A DNA stretch of 51,214 bases from a bacterium. Its GTDB lineage: Bacteria; Zhuqueibacterota; Zhuqueibacteria; Zhuqueibacterales; Geothermadaptataceae. The stretch is taken from NCBI GenBank assembly GCA_024275575.1, contig JAJRYV010000097.1:1-51214 (forward strand), written 5' to 3'. Numbering within the stretch: position 1 is the first letter of the stretch; the number at the start of each line of letters is the position of its first letter. Below the pieces are notes generated by a model. That model did no database searches. It had not been told where the DNA came from and saw only the letters and a list, made by a program, of their open reading frames with translations. The translations under genes and the position numbers were made by a program. This document shows, piece after piece, positions 37,341-50,725 of this stretch.

Positions 37341-37992
37341 CTTACGACAAACTAAAGAACAGGCTGTTCATCACCAGGGAAGAAACCGACAATTTGCCAG
37401 GATTTTTTGGAAAAACGTACTAATGCCGGGTATGAACATTTATCAGATGCCCTCAATATTTTTCCTGCACGGCACGTCGAATGCATGGATGCCTCCAGAC
37501 ATGATTTCGATACTTATGCCAAGTCTTGCTCACCGGGTACACCGCCGTTTTAGCTGAGGAATGAGAATTATTCTAAAGTCTCTTGTCTAAGTTGGAAACG
37601 AGCATCGTCCCGGGGATTATCACAATTTTTAAATACTCTTTTACAACATGCACTTCCATTTGCCAGGTTGCCTGATTCACCAGTAAAACTCGCCAGCCAC
37701 GCACCTTATCCTGCGATTCAAATCAGGAACCGGCTCTGACGGTATTTGCGGTTTGCTGCCTTCAACCGGATTGACCTTGCAGGGAGATGCGTGTCAGCAC
37801 AGTTTTTTTTCATCACCGTATGCAATCCTGAATTGCCGATGGTCTCTATTTTCAGGTGCATGACTATAGGATTTAAGTTGAGCGAATCGGACAAGCTCCC
37901 CCTGCACATTGCCTGAGCCTGAAGATAAAAGTGCTCAATTTAACTTCTGTTAAAAACAATGTTTTCTCGATATTGAAATTATGGAGAGAAAA

Positions 37993-40900
37993 ATGAAAAG
38001 CTGCAGCCAACAATATGTAATCCGGCATTTTCTTTTTACACCGGCCAGGCCATGGCTTGCCGGTAAAATTCTCCGTCGCTTCTATTTGGTTTTTTTTATA
38101 TTTAACCTGGCCCCGCTTTTTGCCGGAGAAAACGGTACTTTTCGCGATCGCGAATTTGTTTTTGCTTTTTTGCCCAATTCCAATGCCACATTTATACTTG
38201 AAATTCATACTGTTGGAACACCGGGCACCGAGGTGACTTTGGTTTATGGCAACGATGAGCCACAAGTCAATTCCATTCCCGCCTCCGGGCGGCTGATTTT
38301 TACGGTTTCCGAAGAAGCCGGAAAAATTGAAAACTGGGCAAACAGCGGCAGTGGCGCAGCGGATAAAATGGCAATACGCATCACCGCCGGCGACGATATT
38401 TTATGCTACGCCATCAATGGCGCCCGCGCCTCGGGTGACGGCGCAATCGTGTTGCCGCTCTCCGAATTGAAAACATTTTACGAAGTCATCACCTATGACC
38501 GTAACGGAGAGACACTCGAGCGCGATCAGGCGGTTTTTGCCATCGTCGCAGCCTACGACAGCACGGAAATCATCCTCAACCCGAGTCAGGAAATCACCAA
38601 TCAGTTGGCGGAGAATGAGCATGGCACCTATACGGTCAGTTTAATGAAAGACGAAGCCCTCCTCGTGCGCAGTAAAGGTGATAGCACGGAAGGAAATTTG
38701 AGCGGTTCCATCGTCATCGCCAACCACCCGGTGGCCATCATCAACGGTAACCGCTGCACCCGCATACCGGCCGGTGTATCTGATTGTGACCACATTTTCG
38801 AAATGGCTCAGCCGATCCAATCATGGGGCGACAGCCTTTTGGTCGCCGGCTTGCCCACCCGGCCTTCGGGCATGAGCTATGAGATCGTCGCTTTCCATCC
38901 CAACACCGAAGTTTTTATCGATGGCGAGCTGGTGGGCATCATCGACAACAATAACCGCAGCATCAAAATCGATACTCTTACCGGTGACCACCTGATTACG
39001 GCAAATAATCCGATTTTCGTCAGCCAATTTATGCCAGGTTCGGTAACTGATCAGGATGTCAGCGGCGATCCGTTTATGACCAACATCATTCCCATCAAAC
39101 AATTCGTTGCGGTGCATGATTTTGTCACCCCGGATTATTCCACTGCCAACCCGATTTATGATACTAATCAAATAACTTTATTCATCGATGAACAGGACCT
39201 GTCGTCGATTCAAATCGATGATATAACCATTGCCCCGGAAAAATTTGCCCGCATTCCGGCGACCTCGTTTTATACCGCGACGCTGACGCTCGCCCCGGGG
39301 AAACACCGCTCAACTACTGAAAATGCCGATCACGGGCTCATCGTTTCCGGTTATGGCAATGCCACAGCTTATGCCTACCCTGCAGGAGATTCTCTCGCGA
39401 TTATCAATAAAGGGCACGATAACCGGTCACCGGCGATTAAAACCGAGCTGGAAAACCATGTCGCCCACGGTGTTGCCAGTGATGACAGCCTCAGCGAGGA
39501 TAGCAATAACAACGGCCTGCTCGATAACGATGAAGACCTGAACAGCAACGGTAAACTCGACATTGATTACGGCCTTGAAGAAATATACCTGCTGCCCAAC
39601 AGCAATAATGTCAAATTGGTGATGACCAAACCTTTTACGCCGGGTGATAAAAAAGTCGAGTTTGACCTGCGTTTGATCGATACTGATTTCCCGGGAAGCT
39701 GCACCATCGTTGCGCGCGATTTATCCGGCAATTTAATGGAGAAAACCGTCGTCATCCCGGAATGTGACGTCATCCTTTTAAACACTGAAATCCTGGTGCC
39801 GACACTTGCAGACAGCGTCACCCTGTCGATATTTCCCAAGTTTAAAGGGGATGATCCCATCGGTTACACTAAAACGATGCACATCAGCAATGGAGAGTTT
39901 GAAGATTCATTTGCTTTTGTGCCCAATGAAACCCTTGATGTGCACATCGCTTTGTTCCCGGGCGCCAACAATATCTCTATTTTCACCGAATATCTCAGCG
40001 GGCAGCTGCAGGCCACAAGCTGCCGGACGGATTTGGAAATTTTGCGGGTTGATACGCTGAAATGCGAGGGAATTTCTTTTTCGGAGCCGCAAGATATAAA
40101 TATTCTCGCAGAAAGCGCTCATTTCGTTTTTTCCGGGCAAATCACCGGAGGATATATTTTACAATCGCAAGGCATTTTGATCAATACCACGACCGGCGAT
40201 ACGATTACCGCGGTCCAAAACGGCGCAACCTTCAGTGCAGAAATGCCGCTTGTCATGGGGATCAACAATCTTCGAGCAGAAATTTCCACCAGCGATAGTT
40301 TGCAACAATTCGTCCAATGCGCTCAGGATTTACAAGTCTTCCGGCCTTTCCCTTTCGATTGTGGGATTACAGAAGTGACGCCGGACAGCGGTTTGATCAC
40401 CATCGCCGATTCCATCCTGATCACCGCAAAAATAACCGTCGACGGCGGGATTACCCCTTATCAGGATTCCTGCACTGTCAACGGAATATTAACCCCCTGG
40501 GTCGATGGCGCAATCGCTCAGAAAGTGCCTTTGTATTTTGGTGTGAATTCGATCGAAATTCGATCGAAATTCGTCGATGATTATGGTCAAATAACTGAAT
40601 GTTTCGAACAAACAACCGTCATCCGGCCGCGGCCGCTGATTTGCAGGATCACTGACATTTCCCATCCCGACGGTCTGGCGCTGGTCGATTCGACGATTTT
40701 GTTTCAGGCCAAAGTCTACGTGACCGGCGGTCTGAATCCGATCATCGCTTCGGCTGAAATTAACGGTGAAAAAGTCACCATCACCGACAGCATCATTTCA
40801 AAGCAGATCAATCTGGGGCTTGGCCTCAACGAAATCAATATCAAAACGATGTACATCGACAGTCTGGGGCAGAGCTCCTACTGTGATTCAACGATCGTGC

Positions 40901-43900
40901 TCAACCGCCCAAAACCCGTGACCTGTAATATCGAGTGGCTGAACCAGGAGCCAAACAATGTGACAATCGACAGTCTGGTTATTTTAAAAGCGAAGATTAC
41001 CTCGAGCGGTGGGCTGGCGCCGATTACCACCTGGGTGTTGATCAACGATTCCACCGTCGCCATCATCAATGATTCGCTGGCGTATACTTTAAAACTCGAT
41101 TATGGTGAAAATGATTTTGTAATCCGAACATTCTTTACCGACAGCCTCGGCCAATCCAGTCGATGCGATACGACGATATCATTTAACCGGATTACGCCGC
41201 CGCGTTGTGAAATCACTTCGATGTCACCTGCGGATAGCGCTATCACGCTTGCCCGGACACTTCCTTTCAAGGCAAAGCTCGAAGTTAAAGGCGGCCTGAA
41301 GCCCGTCATCAAAACTGCGGCTATCAACGGTGACCCGGTGTTTGTTTTCGATGGCGTTATCTCCACCAATCTCAGCCTTGATCCGGGAGTAAATATTATT
41401 AAACTAACTACGCTTTCAACGGATATGCTGGGGCAGGAAACAACCTGTGATTCTACGATTATCATTACCCGTGTCGATTCATTGCAATGCAAAATCGTCA
41501 GCATCACCCCGGCTGATGGCTTGGTCACAACTCAACCTGAGATAACATTTACCGCACGGGTTAATATCAGCGGCGGCCTCGACCCGGTTTCCGGTGAGGC
41601 TTTTATTAACGGTGAACCGGTTGATATCATCGGCGGTATCATTTCGAAAAAGTTGCTGCTTGAGTTCGGTAAAAATGAAATCATCCTGCGCACGACGTAC
41701 ATCGACAGCATTCAGCAAATCACCCGTTGCGATACGACGTTGGTCTTTTATCGCGCCGAACCGTTGCATTGCGAGTTCACACAAGTTTCACCTGCCGATC
41801 AAGCGGAAACTTCCCTCGACAGCGCCCTGATCGCTGCTGAAATCAAGACCAGCGGTGGTTGGCCGCCCATAAGCGGCAGCGGCATCATCGACGGACAACT
41901 GGTGGAAATCATCGATGGGAAAATATCACTGAAAGTGCCACTCAATATCGGCGAAAACGAGATCGAACTGCACGCAGCATTCAACGACAGCCTTGGGCAA
42001 TCGACTGCATGTGATACGACGATCACGATCAAACGCAAAGACCCGATTATATGCAAAATCAATGAAATTCGTCCGAACAGCGGCACCAGCACAGCAGCAG
42101 ATTCCATCAATTTTTACGCAAATGTAAGCACAACCGGCGGGTTGGCGCCTATCATTGCGGCCGCCACGATCAATGGGGATACGGTGAAATTTGAGAATAA
42201 CATCATTGCTGTAAAAATCGCGCTGAACCGGCCTGGACAAAATGAGATTGTTCTGCACACATTTTTCAGCGATTCGCTCGAGCAAACCACATCTTGCGAT
42301 ACAGCGATTTTAATCAACCGGGTTGGGATTCTCACTTGTGATATTTCCGCTGTTACACCCGGTGACGACCTGCAAACTCTGGCCAATTCGATTCAGTTTT
42401 CAGCGAGAGTGAACGCAGCCGGTGGCCTGGCCCCGGTTTTCAGCACAGCAACGATTAACAGCGAACCGGTGGAAATCATCGATGGCGTGGTGGCCAAAGA
42501 AATGATTCTGAATTTCGGCCCCAATGACATCACACTACAGACATCCTTCACAGACTCCCTGGGCCAGCTTGCCAATTGTGATACGACTATTACCGTAAAT
42601 CGTGTTCGACCGCTGGGTTGTGAAATAGCAGCTATTTCTCCCGCCGACGGGTTTAAAACGGCAAACAATTCAGTTATATTTTCTGCGCGCGTCCTCCCCC
42701 TCGACGGCCTGGCGCCATTTATCGGCAGCGCCACAATTAACGGTGAACCCGTCGCCATTACCGATAGTGTTGTCACCCGCGAAATTCCACTGAAAATCGG
42801 CGAGAATACAATTAGTTTGCAGGTGGCATTCAGTGATTCTCTCGGCCAGGAGTCCTCCTGTGAAACGAACATTAACGTACAGCGACCAGCCGCGCCAGGC
42901 TGTGTTTATTCCTATATTTCGATCCCTGACAGCTATTCGACAAGGGCGGGTTCCGTGCTGCTGGAAGCCGGTATTCGGGGTGAAAGTACGGTAAAAATCA
43001 TCGCCAGCCGCATCTGGCTTAACAGCAGACTCCTCGGGCGTAATATTTTCGATATTTCTGAAATCGTCAATCTCCGGTACGGCAATAATGAAATCATCTT
43101 AACGAGCGAATTTACCGATGAATTGGGGCAGAGCACCCGTTGTGACAAAACGATCAATGTATTCCGCATCCCTCCGGATTTAAGCTGTAAAATTGCAAAT
43201 ATTTCCGTCAGCAAATCTGTAACGATTGCAAATTCGATTACATTGACGGCTGAGATGAGCACCTCTGGCGGTATCGCCCCAATTTTTGCAACAGCGACGA
43301 TCAACGGCGATACGGCAAAAATTATAAACGGTAAAATTCAGTCTGATATCGCACTGGAATTGGGTAGAAACACTTTTAATATTGCAGTCGATTTTTATGA
43401 TTCTTCACCAGATTCGTTACAGCAAAGAACAAAATGTGAGGCGACAGTTACAGCATTTCGAGCCGACTCCCTCGGCTGTGAAATCAGCAATATTTCACCA
43501 AAAGACGGCGCCGTAACCACCGCAGAAAAGCTCACTTTTTCCGCCGACGTCAATCCCCTCGGCGGCTGGCTGCCCATCTCCGCTTCGGCGACGATCAACG
43601 GCGAGAATATCGATATCAACGACGGCCGGGTTGAGCGAGTCATCACACTGCAGATCGGGTCGAACGAAATCACCCTGCAAACATCATTCAGCGATTCCCT
43701 CGGTCAGATCGCCAATTGCGATACGACGATCACCCTCATCCGCAGCGACTCCCTCGGCTGTGAAATCAGCAATATTTCGCATGTTGACGGTTGGATGACG
43801 GCTGCGAGTTTTTTCACTTTTTCAGCGAACGCCTTTCCAACGGGAGGTGTACCGCCATTCACTGAAGCCGCCACACTCAACGGTAAAACAGTGGAAATCG

Positions 43901-46900
43901 TCGACTGTGTGGTGAGCGAAAAAATCGCATTGAATGTTGGCGTCAACGAAATCCATTTGCAAACATCATTCAGCGATTCCCTTGGTCAAACATCGATCTG
44001 CGATACGACGATAACCGTTATTCGCGGCGATTCACTAAGCTGTGAAATCAGTAGTGTTTCTCCGGTTGACGGCTGGCAAACGACGGCGACTACGGTGATT
44101 TTCTCAGCCGTCGTCAAACCCATCGGCGGGTATGCACCGATCACCGGTACGGCCTCGTTAAACGGTTTTGTGATACAAATCAGCGACAGCGCGGTCAGTC
44201 GCGAACTTGATTTACAGATCGGCAAAAATACGATCACCCTCGAAACCCTGTTCAGCGACAGTCTGCAACAACTGGCAAAATGCGACACGATGATCACAGT
44301 TTACAGAATTCAGTCTGATCCGATGTGCGCTGTCAGGGTTTTATCGCCAGCTGATGGCGACACCATCCGGGCCGACAGTGTGGTTGTCACTGTTGAATCT
44401 ACGGTGACCGGCGGCACACCACCACTTTCACGGGAGTGCAACGTCAACGGTTTTCCGGTGATTTTTCCTGTCGGTTCGATCGTCGGGACAGTCAAAATTC
44501 CGCTTGTTACTGGTGTGAATAGCCTGATTGCCAGTTCCACTTATACAGACTCGTCAGGTCGACTTACGGCCTGCAGTGATTCCATTTCAATTCCGCACAT
44601 CAGCCCGCCGGCGCCGGTCGATCCTTCATGCAATACACGCATTTTAGTACCGCAAAACGGGTCATTCTTCGATGTCGACAGCCTTGAGATAACCGTGCTT
44701 GCCAGATTTACCCCGGGAGTACCAGCCGCGCCATTGGACAGCGGCAATATCACCGTCAACGGCATCCCGGTATATCTTGCAGAAAAAACAGATACTATTG
44801 GCACGGTGAAAATTGCCCTGGTTGCCGGGCTGAATACCATCACGTTGAGCAGCACATTCAATGACTCCCTGGGGCGGACAAGCACTTGTACCGATATCAT
44901 TACCGTTACACGAGCGGCCCCGCCGCCGCAGTGCAGCGTTGAAGTTACCGCGCCGGATGAGGGATTCGTCACAGCAAATGACAGTGTCAACGTCACAATT
45001 TCTGCGAGTTTGACCGGCGGGCAGCTACCGGTTACCGCCGAATGGACCGTCAACGGCAGGGTAGTCGAACTCGATTTGGCAAGCTTCACCGGTCAGGTGA
45101 CTGTGCCGTTGCTCACCGGCAGCAATGGTATTCTCGCGGTGTGCAGTTTTAGCGATTCTCTCGGCAGATCAACCACCTGCCGCGATTCCATCACGGTTGA
45201 AAAGACTGCGCCCGAACTTACTTGCGCGCTGGACTTTTTCAAGCCGGAAGATGGAGAAATCATTTACAGCGACAGTGTTCTCGTCATGGGTTCGCTGGCC
45301 ATTTCCGGCGGCATTGCGCCGTTTGACAGCAGCGTTTCGGTCAACGGCCTGCCGGTCTCGTACAATACAGACGGCAGTTTTTATCTCTCCGTACCGCTGC
45401 AAAAAGGGGAAAATTCAATCGTTGCCGAAGCCGATATTTCGGATGTCTCCGGTCAAAACCATACCTGTTCCATCGAAATCCAGGTCTTCCGGCCTGAAAA
45501 CCTGGCGTGCACGGTTTCGATAGTGGAACCGGCAGACAGCATTACGGTGAGCAGTGACAGCAGCGCCACCGGTAGCGACAGCTTGCTGGTTATCGCACAG
45601 GCGGAGGTTAGCGGCGGGGTTTTACCCTACGCTGATTCCACCTGTGCGATAAATGGCGTACCGGCCAGTTTGAATGCCGATGGTTATTTTCAGGCAAAAG
45701 TGGCGATAGCGAACGGCTTAAACAAAATTTCTGTAACCTGCGCATTTACCGACGCTGATTCGATGATCACGGCCTGCAGCGATACGCTGGTGGTTTTTGG
45801 TGATGAATTTCGTTGCGATATGACCATCATTTCACCCGATGACGGCCACAAACAGTGCAGCGCGCATTTCAACACTTATATCGATCTCAAATTAAGCGGC
45901 GCTGTCGGACCGACCGAAACCTGGTGCATTGTCAATGGCGATACGGCTGAAGTAACCGACGACGGTTTGTTGTACGGACACACTGTTCTCGCGCCGGGAT
46001 ATAATGCGGTCATCATCAACAGCACCTCCATCGACAGCCTCGGACGCCGTGCTGTCTGTATCGATACGTTGACGGTGTTTGTCGATCGTACGCCGGCGCA
46101 GGGTGAGCTCGACCGTACTGATCCACCGACGGTGCGCGGGCGGGTTTTTGACTGGGAAAGCGGGATTGCAAGCATCGAAATCGTCAGTCAGTCCGACGCC
46201 GATATTCAAATCGATGGTTTCGAACCCGGCCAGAAGCAGGTCAATTTTGTCGCCTACCGCACCGGCCAGAATAGCGGCCCGAGCTTTGTGCTGCGGATTA
46301 CCAACGGTACCGGCTGTGTGATGGAATATGACCCGATTTCCATTCGTATCGAACCGTCGGAGACCTGTGATTTCAGTTTTATTATTCCACAGGTTGACCG
46401 CTATCTGAACATCGATAATTTCGGTATTCACAAGATACATTTCCGCCTCAATGGACGTCAAATCGACTTCGTCGCGGATGAGCAGGGAACGGAAATTCCC
46501 GGTGAGATCTATTATATTCCTCTCACCGGCGCCCGTACCATCGATTTGCATGATTATCTCGATGCCGGAGATAACGACCTCGATATCTGGTGCGAAGGCC
46601 CGGCGGGAAGTTACGCCGAAATTTTCATCGCCGATGTCCGACTGTCGCGACAAACGACTTCTGTGGAAATTGAAAACCGTCGCAGAAACATGCTGCCGGA
46701 TAAATTCGCCCTGAACCAGAACTATCCCAACCCGTTCAATATGCGCACGATCATCAGTTTCAGCATTCCCAACGGCTGGACAAAACCGGTGAAACTGGTG
46801 CTGTACAACGCCAAAGGACAATTAGTGAAAACACTGTTTGATGAAAAAGTACTGCCGGGTAACTACCGTGTCTGGTGGGACGGCACCGATGAAACCGGTA

Positions 46901-46983
46901 TGCAAGTCGCATCCGGAATGTACCTCTACCGTATTGTTTCCGGGCGTAATTCCCAGGTTAAAAAGTTGCTTTTGACGAAATAA
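37993..46983 (+). CDS. Giant secreted protein: IgGFc-binding-like N-terminus, ~21 tandem Cys-paired repeats, FlgD-like C-terminal module
   Basis: The product has 2996 residues from the ATG at 37993. GGAGAG lies at the right distance before it and overlaps an earlier ATG at 37981, which is therefore rejected. A signal anchor ends near residue 45. Residues about 50-460 resemble the IgGFc-binding N-terminal domain. A short Asp/Asn-rich segment at about 500-520 (DSNNNGLLDNDEDLNSNGK) looks like type 3 calcium repeats. From about 690 to 2700 come about 21 repeats of about 94 residues, each opening CxIxxISPADG, with GGLxPIxxxATINGE in the middle and SFSDSLGQxxxCDTTI at the end. The two Cys per repeat suggest one disulfide each. 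The C-terminus has NQNYPNPFNMRTIISF and ASGMYLYRIV, the type IX/FlgD-like module. It is likely a long surface fibre or adhesin. Confidence 0.93.
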   Translation: MKSCSQQYVIRHFLFTPARPWLAGKILRRFYLVFFIFNLAPLFAGENGTFRDREFVFAFLPNSNATFILEIHTVGTPGTEVTLVYGNDEPQVNSIPASGRLIFTVSEEAGKIENWANSGSGAADKMAIRITAGDDILCYAINGARASGDGAIVLPLSELKTFYEVITYDRNGETLERDQAVFAIVAAYDSTEIILNPSQEITNQLAENEHGTYTVSLMKDEALLVRSKGDSTEGNLSGSIVIANHPVAIINGNRCTRIPAGVSDCDHIFEMAQPIQSWGDSLLVAGLPTRPSGMSYEIVAFHPNTEVFIDGELVGIIDNNNRSIKIDTLTGDHLITANNPIFVSQFMPGSVTDQDVSGDPFMTNIIPIKQFVAVHDFVTPDYSTANPIYDTNQITLFIDEQDLSSIQIDDITIAPEKFARIPATSFYTATLTLAPGKHRSTTENADHGLIVSGYGNATAYAYPAGDSLAIINKGHDNRSPAIKTELENHVAHGVASDDSLSEDSNNNGLLDNDEDLNSNGKLDIDYGLEEIYLLPNSNNVKLVMTKPFTPGDKKVEFDLRLIDTDFPGSCTIVARDLSGNLMEKTVVIPECDVILLNTEILVPTLADSVTLSIFPKFKGDDPIGYTKTMHISNGEFEDSFAFVPNETLDVHIALFPGANNISIFTEYLSGQLQATSCRTDLEILRVDTLKCEGISFSEPQDINILAESAHFVFSGQITGGYILQSQGILINTTTGDTITAVQNGATFSAEMPLVMGINNLRAEISTSDSLQQFVQCAQDLQVFRPFPFDCGITEVTPDSGLITIADSILITAKITVDGGITPYQDSCTVNGILTPWVDGAIAQKVPLYFGVNSIEIRSKFVDDYGQITECFEQTTVIRPRPLICRITDISHPDGLALVDSTILFQAKVYVTGGLNPIIASAEINGEKVTITDSIISKQINLGLGLNEINIKTMYIDSLGQSSYCDSTIVLNRPKPVTCNIEWLNQEPNNVTIDSLVILKAKITSSGGLAPITTWVLINDSTVAIINDSLAYTLKLDYGENDFVIRTFFTDSLGQSSRCDTTISFNRITPPRCEITSMSPADSAITLARTLPFKAKLEVKGGLKPVIKTAAINGDPVFVFDGVISTNLSLDPGVNIIKLTTLSTDMLGQETTCDSTIIITRVDSLQCKIVSITPADGLVTTQPEITFTARVNISGGLDPVSGEAFINGEPVDIIGGIISKKLLLEFGKNEIILRTTYIDSIQQITRCDTTLVFYRAEPLHCEFTQVSPADQAETSLDSALIAAEIKTSGGWPPISGSGIIDGQLVEIIDGKISLKVPLNIGENEIELHAAFNDSLGQSTACDTTITIKRKDPIICKINEIRPNSGTSTAADSINFYANVSTTGGLAPIIAAATINGDTVKFENNIIAVKIALNRPGQNEIVLHTFFSDSLEQTTSCDTAILINRVGILTCDISAVTPGDDLQTLANSIQFSARVNAAGGLAPVFSTATINSEPVEIIDGVVAKEMILNFGPNDITLQTSFTDSLGQLANCDTTITVNRVRPLGCEIAAISPADGFKTANNSVIFSARVLPLDGLAPFIGSATINGEPVAITDSVVTREIPLKIGENTISLQVAFSDSLGQESSCETNINVQRPAAPGCVYSYISIPDSYSTRAGSVLLEAGIRGESTVKIIASRIWLNSRLLGRNIFDISEIVNLRYGNNEIILTSEFTDELGQSTRCDKTINVFRIPPDLSCKIANISVSKSVTIANSITLTAEMSTSGGIAPIFATATINGDTAKIINGKIQSDIALELGRNTFNIAVDFYDSSPDSLQQRTKCEATVTAFRADSLGCEISNISPKDGAVTTAEKLTFSADVNPLGGWLPISASATINGENIDINDGRVERVITLQIGSNEITLQTSFSDSLGQIANCDTTITLIRSDSLGCEISNISHVDGWMTAASFFTFSANAFPTGGVPPFTEAATLNGKTVEIVDCVVSEKIALNVGVNEIHLQTSFSDSLGQTSICDTTITVIRGDSLSCEISSVSPVDGWQTTATTVIFSAVVKPIGGYAPITGTASLNGFVIQISDSAVSRELDLQIGKNTITLETLFSDSLQQLAKCDTMITVYRIQSDPMCAVRVLSPADGDTIRADSVVVTVESTVTGGTPPLSRECNVNGFPVIFPVGSIVGTVKIPLVTGVNSLIASSTYTDSSGRLTACSDSISIPHISPPAPVDPSCNTRILVPQNGSFFDVDSLEITVLARFTPGVPAAPLDSGNITVNGIPVYLAEKTDTIGTVKIALVAGLNTITLSSTFNDSLGRTSTCTDIITVTRAAPPPQCSVEVTAPDEGFVTANDSVNVTISASLTGGQLPVTAEWTVNGRVVELDLASFTGQVTVPLLTGSNGILAVCSFSDSLGRSTTCRDSITVEKTAPELTCALDFFKPEDGEIIYSDSVLVMGSLAISGGIAPFDSSVSVNGLPVSYNTDGSFYLSVPLQKGENSIVAEADISDVSGQNHTCSIEIQVFRPENLACTVSIVEPADSITVSSDSSATGSDSLLVIAQAEVSGGVLPYADSTCAINGVPASLNADGYFQAKVAIANGLNKISVTCAFTDADSMITACSDTLVVFGDEFRCDMTIISPDDGHKQCSAHFNTYIDLKLSGAVGPTETWCIVNGDTAEVTDDGLLYGHTVLAPGYNAVIINSTSIDSLGRRAVCIDTLTVFVDRTPAQGELDRTDPPTVRGRVFDWESGIASIEIVSQSDADIQIDGFEPGQKQVNFVAYRTGQNSGPSFVLRITNGTGCVMEYDPISIRIEPSETCDFSFIIPQVDRYLNIDNFGIHKIHFRLNGRQIDFVADEQGTEIPGEIYYIPLTGARTIDLHDYLDAGDNDLDIWCEGPAGSYAEIFIADVRLSRQTTSVEIENRRRNMLPDKFALNQNYPNPFNMRTIISFSIPNGWTKPVKLVLYNAKGQLVKTLFDEKVLPGNYRVWWDGTDETGMQVASGMYLYRIVSGRNSQVKKLLLTK
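40063..46075 (+). repeat. Tandem array of ~21 repeats, about 282 bases (94 codons) each
   Basis: The units start at a Cys codon (first at 40063, second near 40359). Members 2-15 keep near-constant length, while members 16-21 are longer and more divergent. The most similar neighbours are the units near 43465 and 43747: the 32-base stretch coding SLGCEISNIS recurs exactly 282 bases apart. The stretch coding LQTSFSDSLGQ recurs at 43676 and 43958, the same distance. This shows a recent in-frame duplication. Confidence 0.88.
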
Positions 46984-47216: not shown

Positions 47217-48035
47217 TTGAAACAAATCCCCAGCACAACCACGATGCAAAAAATCGCCCTGCTCATCGATGGCGACAATGCCCAACCGCGTCTGCTGAGT
47301 AAAATCATTGCCGAGGCCGGCATTTATGGCCCCATCACCATCAAACGTATTTACGGCGACTGGACGACATCGAACATGCGTGGCTGGAAGGATGCGCTTA
47401 ACAATTATGCTGTCCAGCCCATTCAGCAATTCCGCTACACCGTCGGGAAAAACGCTACCGACAGCGCCCTGATCATCGATGCGATGGATATTTTACACAG
47501 CGGTTTTGTCGATGGTTTCTGCATCGTCTCCAGCGATAGCGATTACACCCGGCTGGCTACACGCATTCGCGAGGCTGGTTTTTTTGTCATGGGTATCGGC
47601 GAGAAAAAGACACCCAAGCCGTTCGTCAACGCCTGCAATATTTTTATTTTCACGGAGAATATCGTCGATGATTTCGAGAGAAACAGGGCCGATGAAACAA
47701 CTTTAGATGTCCTGTCGGAAAATGACAGCATCGACCCGGTGCAGCTCATCACCGAAGCGCATTCCATGGCAGAAAACGAAGGCGGCTGGGCGCCGCTTGC
47801 GGCCATCGGTTTGCACTTGCACCAGCTCGATCCCAGTTTCGATCCGCGATCATTTGGCTTCAAAAAATTGTCGCAGCTCATGCAGGCCAACGATAAATAT
47901 TTCACCATGCGATATGATGACGATAACAACCTCTCCACCGTTTTTGTCAAAGTCAATGAGGCACCAAAAGCGAAAAAGAAAACGCCGAAAAGAAAGAAAA
48001 AAAAACCCATCAAATCAAAACCAGGGTCAAAATGA
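47217..48035 (+). CDS. NYN-domain (LabA/MARF1-like) protein with OST-HTH-type C-terminal domain
   Basis: This is a 272-residue cytoplasmic protein. Residues about 11-150 form a NYN (PIN-like) nuclease fold: KIALLIDGDNAQP with Asp18 and Asp20, ATDSALIIDAMDIL, FCIVSSDSDYTRLATRIREAG and GIGEKKTPKPFVNACNIFIF. These acidic residues are the expected metal-binding set. Residues about 170-240 match the OST-HTH/LOTUS RNA-binding pattern (GWAPLAAIGLHLHQLDPSFDPRSFGFKKLSQLM). A Lys/Arg-rich tail follows. The start is TTG at 47217 with GAGGAAG nine bases upstream; an ATG ten codons later lacks a ribosome site. The family is thought to act on RNA. It overlaps the amylase gene by four bases, so both are translated from one message. 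Confidence 0.88.
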   Translation: MKQIPSTTTMQKIALLIDGDNAQPRLLSKIIAEAGIYGPITIKRIYGDWTTSNMRGWKDALNNYAVQPIQQFRYTVGKNATDSALIIDAMDILHSGFVDGFCIVSSDSDYTRLATRIREAGFFVMGIGEKKTPKPFVNACNIFIFTENIVDDFERNRADETTLDVLSENDSIDPVQLITEAHSMAENEGGWAPLAAIGLHLHQLDPSFDPRSFGFKKLSQLMQANDKYFTMRYDDDNNLSTVFVKVNEAPKAKKKTPKRKKKKPIKSKPGSK

Positions 48036-49537
48036 AAAATATAATACACCGGACTCTGTTTTTTATCGCCCTCATTTCAACCAATACATACCTTGCGGGC
48101 AGCACGGGCAAACGTACGCAATTTAATACTTTACGCATTTACCAGATCATGGTTGAAGCTTTTCAAAACGGAGATTCCAGCCGCAATTATGAAAAAGGCT
48201 ATGGCCCCAGCGATCATCAGGGCGATATCAAAGGCATCACCGAGGCGCTGCCCTACATTAAAAAACTGGGGATGAATGCCCTCTGGCTGACTCCGATTTT
48301 CGATTCCGCCAAAGGCAGCGGCCCGGATTTACGGCTGGAATCAACGGGATATTTTTGCCGTGATTATTTCAGCATCGACCCGGCTTTCGGTACCCTCGCC
48401 GATGCCCGGCAGTTAGTAAATCGCGCTCATGATATGGGCATTTATGTGTTTTTTGACGGCGTCTTCGGCCACCATAAGGGCGAGGTTAAACCATCACCGA
48501 CAGGCAAACTGCCCACAGGCCCGAACAATCCGGTCAAATATCCCGGGAGTCTGGAGTTCTACAAAGAAGTGGCGACTTACTGGATCGACGAATTGGGTAT
48601 CGACGGCTGGCGCCTGGATCAGGCCTATCAGGTTCCGGTGCAGTACTGGCGGCAAATCCGCCAGGCAGTTGAGGCCAAATGTGAGCAACGTCGTCAGGCA
48701 GGCGAAAAATGGGGCACCCTGGGTTACATGGTTGCGGAAATCTGGAGCAGTGCTGATAACATTTCGCAACAGGGTTACGGACCTAAAGATGCGCCAGGTC
48801 TTTTGTCGGCCTTCGATTTCCCATTGCGCTATAATCTTGTGCAGGCGCTGGCGATCGAGGAAAACGGATTTGGCCGGCAACCGGCTTATGTTTTAAATGC
48901 CGGATTCAATAATTTTAAAAAATATCCCCCGCAGGCCATCGCCAATTTGATGATCGGTAATCACGATCTTGTACGCTTCGGCGATCTGCTGCAGCGCGGC
49001 GGTTTTGGCGGGCCGGACAATCCGCAATACTGGCAAAGGCATCGCCTGGCATTCAGTTTTCTAACCGCCTTCACCGGACCGATCACGATTTATTACAACG
49101 AAGAGATTGGTGCCGAAGTGCCGGGTTTTGCGGCTCGCGTCACTGAAAACTGCGTCGATTTCGATCTGTGTGATGATCACGTCGCACGCACTGCAGGCAG
49201 GATTTCAAATCTCAATGAAAATGAGCAGGCGCTCTACGATTATTTGAGTAGACTAATGACCATGCGAGCTCAACATCAGGCGCTGTGGAATGGCGAACGC
49301 ACTAATCTCGCAGCAGGTGAATTTATTTATGCCGATTTGAAATCGACAGCGACAGAAAATATTCTGTTTATTTTAAATACCGGAAAGAATGAAGCGACTT
49401 TCAAAATTAATACCGTCAACTTGCCCAGTTCCAAAGCGCATGATTTGATTTCACAGGAGGTAATTTCGAAAAAGGGGCCGAATCTGGAGTTTAAAATAGC
49501 GGGCCTGTCCTCGCGATTTTTTCTGATTAAAAATTAG
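48032..49537 (+). CDS. Exported GH13 (alpha-amylase family) glycoside hydrolase
   Basis: The 501-residue protein has a signal peptide (about 1-24). The GH13 barrel shows the conserved regions: FFDGVFGHH (143-148, region I), GWRLDQA with nucleophile Asp196, VAEIW with acid/base Glu236, and GNHD with Asp312. A short C-terminal beta domain follows from about residue 420. The start overlaps the preceding stop (ATGA), and AGGG lies five bases before it. It would cleave or rearrange alpha-glucans or short alpha-glucosides in the periplasm or outside. The subfamily, and so the exact substrate, cannot be fixed by eye. Pairing with an RNA-type NYN protein in one operon is odd. Confidence 0.92.
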   Translation: MKNIIHRTLFFIALISTNTYLAGSTGKRTQFNTLRIYQIMVEAFQNGDSSRNYEKGYGPSDHQGDIKGITEALPYIKKLGMNALWLTPIFDSAKGSGPDLRLESTGYFCRDYFSIDPAFGTLADARQLVNRAHDMGIYVFFDGVFGHHKGEVKPSPTGKLPTGPNNPVKYPGSLEFYKEVATYWIDELGIDGWRLDQAYQVPVQYWRQIRQAVEAKCEQRRQAGEKWGTLGYMVAEIWSSADNISQQGYGPKDAPGLLSAFDFPLRYNLVQALAIEENGFGRQPAYVLNAGFNNFKKYPPQAIANLMIGNHDLVRFGDLLQRGGFGGPDNPQYWQRHRLAFSFLTAFTGPITIYYNEEIGAEVPGFAARVTENCVDFDLCDDHVARTAGRISNLNENEQALYDYLSRLMTMRAQHQALWNGERTNLAAGEFIYADLKSTATENILFILNTGKNEATFKINTVNLPSSKAHDLISQEVISKKGPNLEFKIAGLSSRFFLIKN

Positions 49538-49675
49538 AAAAAAAGCATGTTATGAGTAAACAGCGAGATGCTTTCACTGCTATTTTAAAGTGGGGTTGGA
49601 TTTCCAATTGATGGATTGTTTTTGCTGCAGGACTGTCATTGGAATTAGAATTGGCAAGCTCAGGCGCCGGAAATT

Positions 49676-50725
49676 TTAAAACACCTGCAGCGCGATCTCA
49701 TTTTTCGCCTCAATCACCTCACCTATAATTCGTGCATATTCAATCCCGGCGTCATGCAGTTGCTGCAGGGCATCTTTTGATTGAGAAGCAGGCAACGAAA
49801 TGAGCAAGCCGCCATTAGTCATCGGGTCGGCGAGAATCTGTTGCTGGAAAAACGGCCGGTCGATGCACCATTGCAAGCGTTCACTAACAAGTAAAAAGTT
49901 ATTGGCGTTTGAGCCGGTATTGATGCCTTTTTCATACATTTGCAGTGCCGCAGGCAGTAGCGGCAGTGTTTCAAATTGAATATCGAAAGTGACATTTGAT
50001 CCCGAAGCCATCTCGAAAGCATGCCCCATCAGACCGAATCCGGTGATATCAGTTGCTGCGTGAATTTCAAAATTACCGAGAGTTTCACAGGCTATACGGT
50101 TGAGGGTTGTCAATATTTTAAAGCAAGACTCGAGGGCATCCTGCGGCACCCAATTTTTCAGATTGGCGTTAAAAATCGCACCGCTGCCGAGCGGTTTTGT
50201 GAGAATCAGGGCATCACCCGGTAACGCGCCGACATTGCGCCAGATTTTTTGCGGATGCACGATGCCCGTTACTGCGAGGCCGAATTTGGGCTCGGCGTCA
50301 TCCACTGTGTGGCCGCCCGCCAACACTGCCCCGGCCTCGGCTATCTTACTCAAAGCCCCTTCGATGATACCTTGCGTCACTTCTGGTCCCAGTTTGCCGG
50401 AGGGCAGCGCCAGCAGGTTGATGCAGGTCAGCGGCCGGCCACCCATGGCGTAAACATCGCTCATGGAATTGGCTGCGCTGATTTGCCCGAACAGATAAGG
50501 ATCGTCGGAAGTCGGTGTGATAAAATCTGCCGTAGTGATCAGCGCGGTTGTGGGATCAATTTGATAGACGCCGGCGTCATCGCTGGTGTGGAAACCGACG
50601 AGCAGGTTGGGATCATTATTTTGCGGCAGTTTCCGCAGCAGTTCACCAAGCCCGACCGGGCTCGCTTTCGCCGCTCAACCGCAGGTGCTGGCCAAGCTGG
50701 TCAGGCTGTATTTTTTTTTCAACAT
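49676..50725 (-). CDS. selD: Selenide, water dikinase SelD with in-frame TGA (Sec17)
   Basis: The full product has 349 residues, close to E. coli SelD (347). Reading from the ATG at 50725, codon 17 is TGA (50675-50677) in STCG-U-AAKASP. That is the catalytic Cys/Sec plus Lys motif of SelD, at the very position of E. coli Cys17, so the TGA is read as selenocysteine. A simple translation would begin only at MSDVYAMGG (50464) and lose the active site. Further motifs are NNDPNLLVGFHTSDDAGVY, TTADFITPTSDDPYLFG, AGGHTVDDAEPKFGL and ATDITGFGLMGH. SelD makes selenophosphate from selenide and ATP for Sec-tRNA. A SECIS-like hairpin follows the TGA and a TATAAT lies just upstream. selA, selB and tRNA-Sec are not in the window. 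Confidence 0.93.
50649..50677 (-). promoter_or_regulatory. Bacterial SECIS-like element after the Sec codon of selD
   Basis: On the minus strand the TGA (50677-50675) is followed, 12 bases on, by AGCCC-GGTC-GGGCT (50662-50649), extendable by a G-T and a C-G pair at the base to 7 bp. The apical loop GGTC carries the GU that SelB recognises in the fdhF element, and the distance from TGA to loop (17 bases) fits the known bacterial range. Confidence 0.72.

Follow-up and report, generated by a model that had tools for sequence, protein, structure and literature searches.

Does the gene at one end of this contig encode a selenophosphate synthetase (SelD) that is itself a selenoprotein, or is the TGA that interrupts its frame a lesion, a codon for some other residue, or a stop upstream of a shorter protein? 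The window, that is, the whole stretch of 51,214 nucleotides analyzed, is the whole of contig C75. The assembly to which it belongs comprises 144 contigs and 4.96 Mb, is 97.7% complete, and appears to be a metagenome-assembled genome. The original prediction was of a Sec-containing SelD, and we find that selD almost certainly does encode one, with the UGA at codon 17 read as selenocysteine by means of SelB and a downstream hairpin.

The selD frame and its in-frame TGA

The selD frame consists of 349 codons followed by a TAA stop, and its sole interruption is the TGA at codon 17 (Table 1). The encoded protein scored 348 bits (E 3.5e-104) against the NCBIfam selD model TIGR00476 (cut-off 125), 312 bits against NF002098 (cut-off 299), and matched the E. 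coli SelD 3u0o in a phmmer search with an E value of 2.2e-65. Pfam AIRS and AIRS_C domains are present, and the DDAGVY, TADFITP, and TDITGFG motifs align with those of 3u0o. With the curated-model score, Cys/Sec17, Lys20, and the Asp-rich metal/ATP motifs all in place, the product is SelD, and selenophosphate synthetase activity is predicted for it. We take Cys17 and Lys20 to be catalytic in the E. coli protein; the TGA falls on the codon for this cysteine, as had been claimed from the window, three residues before the Lys20 equivalent, and the CG-x-AAK flanks that were part of the claim are found as TCG-U-AAK. By analogy, Sec17 and Lys20 may have the corresponding catalytic roles here.

Table 1. 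Features of selD in the window and selenium-related genes elsewhere in the genome. Positions given without a contig are those of the window.
Feature	Location	Strand	Description
selD (selenide, water dikinase/selenophosphate synthetase)	49676-50725 (read 50725 to 49676)	minus	349 residues, predicted Sec at 17; TIGR00476
In-frame TGA, codon 17, predicted selenocysteine	50675-50677 (read 50677 to 50675)	minus	aligns with E. coli Cys17
Lys20 codon (AAA)	50666-50668	minus	equivalent of E. coli SelD Lys20 by alignment
Predicted bacterial SECIS hairpin	50647-50664	minus	7-bp stem 50664-50658/50653-50647; loop GGUC 50657-50654; 17 nt after UGA
tRNA-Sec (selC)	C138		65.9 bits; ARAGORN tRNA-SeC, anticodon TCA
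selB	C138, ~2.1 kb from tRNA-Sec		345 bits
selA	C79		536 bits
selU/ybbB (tRNA 2-selenouridine synthase)	L168, G000:C125:5108-6004		346 bits
SelW-like Rdx protein	L171, G000:C57:53273-53482	minus	73 residues, MNVSIEYCVVU...; in-frame TGA, CVVU motif

Of the 122 scored homologues, 98 have TGA at codon 17 and 24 have TGC or TGT, with no other codon found; the presence of TGA or Cys in every one of them is far beyond chance. A further 19 homologues outside the scoring pattern are N-terminal fusions with Cys in the motif GLGCACK. This is the pattern expected of a bacterial selenoprotein: a TGA in frame at a position where homologues have Cys or Sec. Among 60 related genomes, nearly all full-length SelD matches either contain exactly one TGA or are uninterrupted frames of ~740 aa. 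The SelD of the nearest relative, QQUE01 (Calditrichaeota bacterium CLD2 14), is 79% identical to that of the window, keeps the TGA, and is itself identical to the SelD of the same-genus genome G001. A frame-breaking lesion in relatives would have spoken against the original prediction; none was found, with TGA or Cys at codon 17 instead.

The fragmented assembly and the position of selD less than 0.5 kb from the contig end might raise the suspicion that the TGA is a sequencing error or that selD is a pseudogene with a nonsense mutation. This reading is refuted by the conservation of the TGA, which occurs at the same codon in homologues from many phyla as well as in the same genus, and the frame is otherwise unbroken. 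Differences from a sister Calditrichota SelD are concentrated at third codon positions (32/50 in codons 18 to 87 and 136/209 from codon 88 to the end), which indicates protein-level constraint on both sides of the TGA. We regard an error or pseudogene as having a vanishingly small probability.

The same constraint bears on the length of the protein. Under translation table 11, the longest open reading frame is 49676-50464, encoding 262 aa, exactly the truncated product that had been foreseen for automated annotation, and standard gene calling of selD would drop the first 87 codons together with the active site. A 262-residue SelD made from a downstream start, with the upstream part untranslated, would coincide with this longest standard frame, but it would miss codons 18 to 87, which are conserved as protein and include the DDAGVY and TADFITP motifs. 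We rejected the short form because of this conservation and consider it highly improbable.

The alpha-amylase-family gene and selD face each other (window 48032-50725). On the far side of the former, at 47217-48035, is a gene for an NYN and OST-HTH (LOTUS) protein, a putative RNase, followed by a 3000-residue open reading frame (37981-46983) with IgGFc_binding and Glucodextran_B domains and a C-terminal FlgD-like Ig domain, which probably encodes a giant surface or secreted protein. In a sister genome (L049, 3001-7031), a glucosidase-like gene faces selD with two genes between them, judged by eye to be metallo-beta-lactamase-like and MarC-like.

A candidate SECIS element after codon 17

A 7-bp stem with a GGTC loop had been described for the region following the TGA, and this hairpin is present within 50640-50680. 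The published bSECIS model specifies a loop of 3-9 nt with a G in the first two positions, a stem of 4-16 bp, a spacing of 16-37 nt, and a minimum free energy of -7.5 or below (PMC13188914). At -10.7 kcal/mol, the selD hairpin falls within every one of these constraints, and its fold has a z score of -2.8 relative to dinucleotide shuffles. Among 20,000 synonymous recodings of the region, 17.9% pass -7.5 kcal/mol and 4.9% are as stable as the native hairpin, which in a single sequence is therefore only modest evidence, weaker when taken alone than the original prediction implied. The same filter is passed by 33 of the 1984 TGAs in the window. An Rfam scan of the window gave no match over selD, which is what one would expect were the element not represented by any model.

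Comparison across homologues adds two further lines of evidence. In 6 of 19 sequences from the SelD group that includes the window's, pair 18-27 of the hairpin is changed from C:G to U:A by coordinated synonymous substitutions, one at the third position of a Ser codon and one at that of a Gly codon. Only 1 of 500 shuffles reached the covariation score; all 19 sequences belong to one clade, and the covarying cells are not independent events. In three of them (L055, L059, and L061), one stem pair is broken and the strict hairpin filter is failed. In a wider set of homologues, a hairpin fitting the model lies downstream of 56/95 TGA codons versus 1/24 Cys codons; these sequences, too, are related, and the counts do not represent independent events. 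The compensatory third-codon changes and the near-absence of the hairpin after Cys codons make the predicted bSECIS convincing.

Selenium utilization elsewhere in the genome

If UGA is decoded as Sec, a bacterial genome is expected to contain selA, selB, and selC, and their absence from one of this completeness would have counted against the original prediction. All three were found (Table 1), and tRNA-Sec is over the cut-off in 7/9 related genomes. The search for further TGA-containing homologues of Cys proteins recovered the SelW-like CVVU gene, a second TGA gene that, together with the decoding genes, bears out the prediction of Sec use by this organism. Its TGA is kept in 8/9 related genomes tested and is followed ~21 nt downstream by a hairpin with an AGUUU loop; an AGU-containing loop was seen at a similar place in the seven sequences read. 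Formate dehydrogenase was considered as a further selenoprotein and rejected, since no match in the genome exceeds the family cut-off and the frames of two related molybdoenzymes are without TGA. There is also no in-frame TGA in the seven AhpC-TSA (peroxiredoxin) or two CMD/AhpD matches of the genome.

That the UGA is read as another amino acid (Trp or Gly, under a reassigned code) or by non-specific readthrough has in its favor that the residue at codon 17 is here predicted from sequence. Against it stand the complete set of selA, selB, and tRNA-Sec, Cys as the sole alternative in the scored homologues, and the bSECIS, and the other genes recovered by the family searches run (AhpC-TSA, CMD, selA, selB, and selU) have no internal TGA, from which we conclude that the code is not reassigned wholesale. 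On these grounds the reading was rejected, and its probability is very low.

With codon 17 read as selenocysteine, a ribosome on the selD mRNA would meet the UGA, and SelB with Sec-tRNA-Sec, anchored to the GGUC-loop hairpin, would outcompete the release factor, resulting in Sec insertion. The full-length SelD would then use Sec17 and Lys20 to form selenophosphate from selenide and ATP. Selenophosphate would pass to SelA for the synthesis of Sec-tRNA, and hence of SelD itself and of the SelW-like protein, and to SelU/YbbB for 2-selenouridine in tRNA; with selU/ybbB present, selenophosphate probably serves two traits. The genome has a single SelD match, the Sec form, and no Cys-type SelD was found in it, so there is no Cys backup and, because the only SelD is itself a predicted selenoprotein, the pathway would depend on its own product.

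SelD lineages and known selenophosphate synthetases

Selenoproteins of the Sec-containing SelD family have been known for decades and are textbook material, and the self-dependence of SelD is therefore no paradox peculiar to this organism. The selD described here is a further case of this family and of low surprise. In reference prokaryotes, 19% of SelD genes carry Sec, always at the same position (PMC4561486), and SelD has been verified by experiment as a selenoprotein and ranks second in extent among the prokaryotic families (PMC13188914). All Sec-decoding organisms without FdhA were found in 2006 to have Sec-SelD, and most have selenouridine (PMC1794560). The window's genome matches this FdhA-free pattern with Sec-SelD and selU, and adds an example while leaving the understanding of Sec decoding unchanged. 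Our open-access literature search found no paper on selenoproteins of Calditrichota; on computational evidence, the present analysis establishes selenocysteine use, at least two predicted selenoproteins, and selenouridine synthesis for a lineage of this phylum.

In a quick tree, the window's SelD belongs to a group of 20 rows with an SH-aLRT support of 100 and the signature TCG-U-AAK..SPVGL, comprising Calditrichota, Poribacteria, deltaproteobacteria, and one Gemmatimonadota MAG. Two genomes of the same family (L146 in G005 and L151 in G003) have a different SelD lineage, which is ~42% identical to that of the window; two lineages within one family suggest transfer or differential loss of paralogues. 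We tentatively propose, as a possibility that we hold to be somewhat doubtful, that the group forms a Sec-SelD subtype of its own, which has spread from one phylum to another and, in some members of this Calditrichota family, has replaced the SelD that was there before. The genome would thereby have been left with a self-dependent sole SelD and with a Sec system that SelD and SelW maintain in the absence of formate dehydrogenase. Many relatives (L025-L028, L030-L035, and others) have a ~740 aa Cys-type SelD, often beside Sec-SelD.

These Cys-type proteins of relatives in the same class, which may be compared with the NADH dehydrogenase-like-SelD fusions (PMC4561486), share a homologous kinase domain with the window's SelD and differ from it in their long N-terminal extension and in having the Cys of GLGCACK in place of Sec. 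The likeness to the Sec-SelD/SPS2 proteins of Pasteurellales, deltaproteobacteria, and clostridia (TIGR00476) is closer: the enzyme is the same, the Sec position (UxxK) is the same, and an in-frame bSECIS directly downstream and the companion selA, selB, and selC genes are shared. Membership of the TCG-U-AAK..SPVGL group sets the window's SelD apart among them, with no functional difference indicated.
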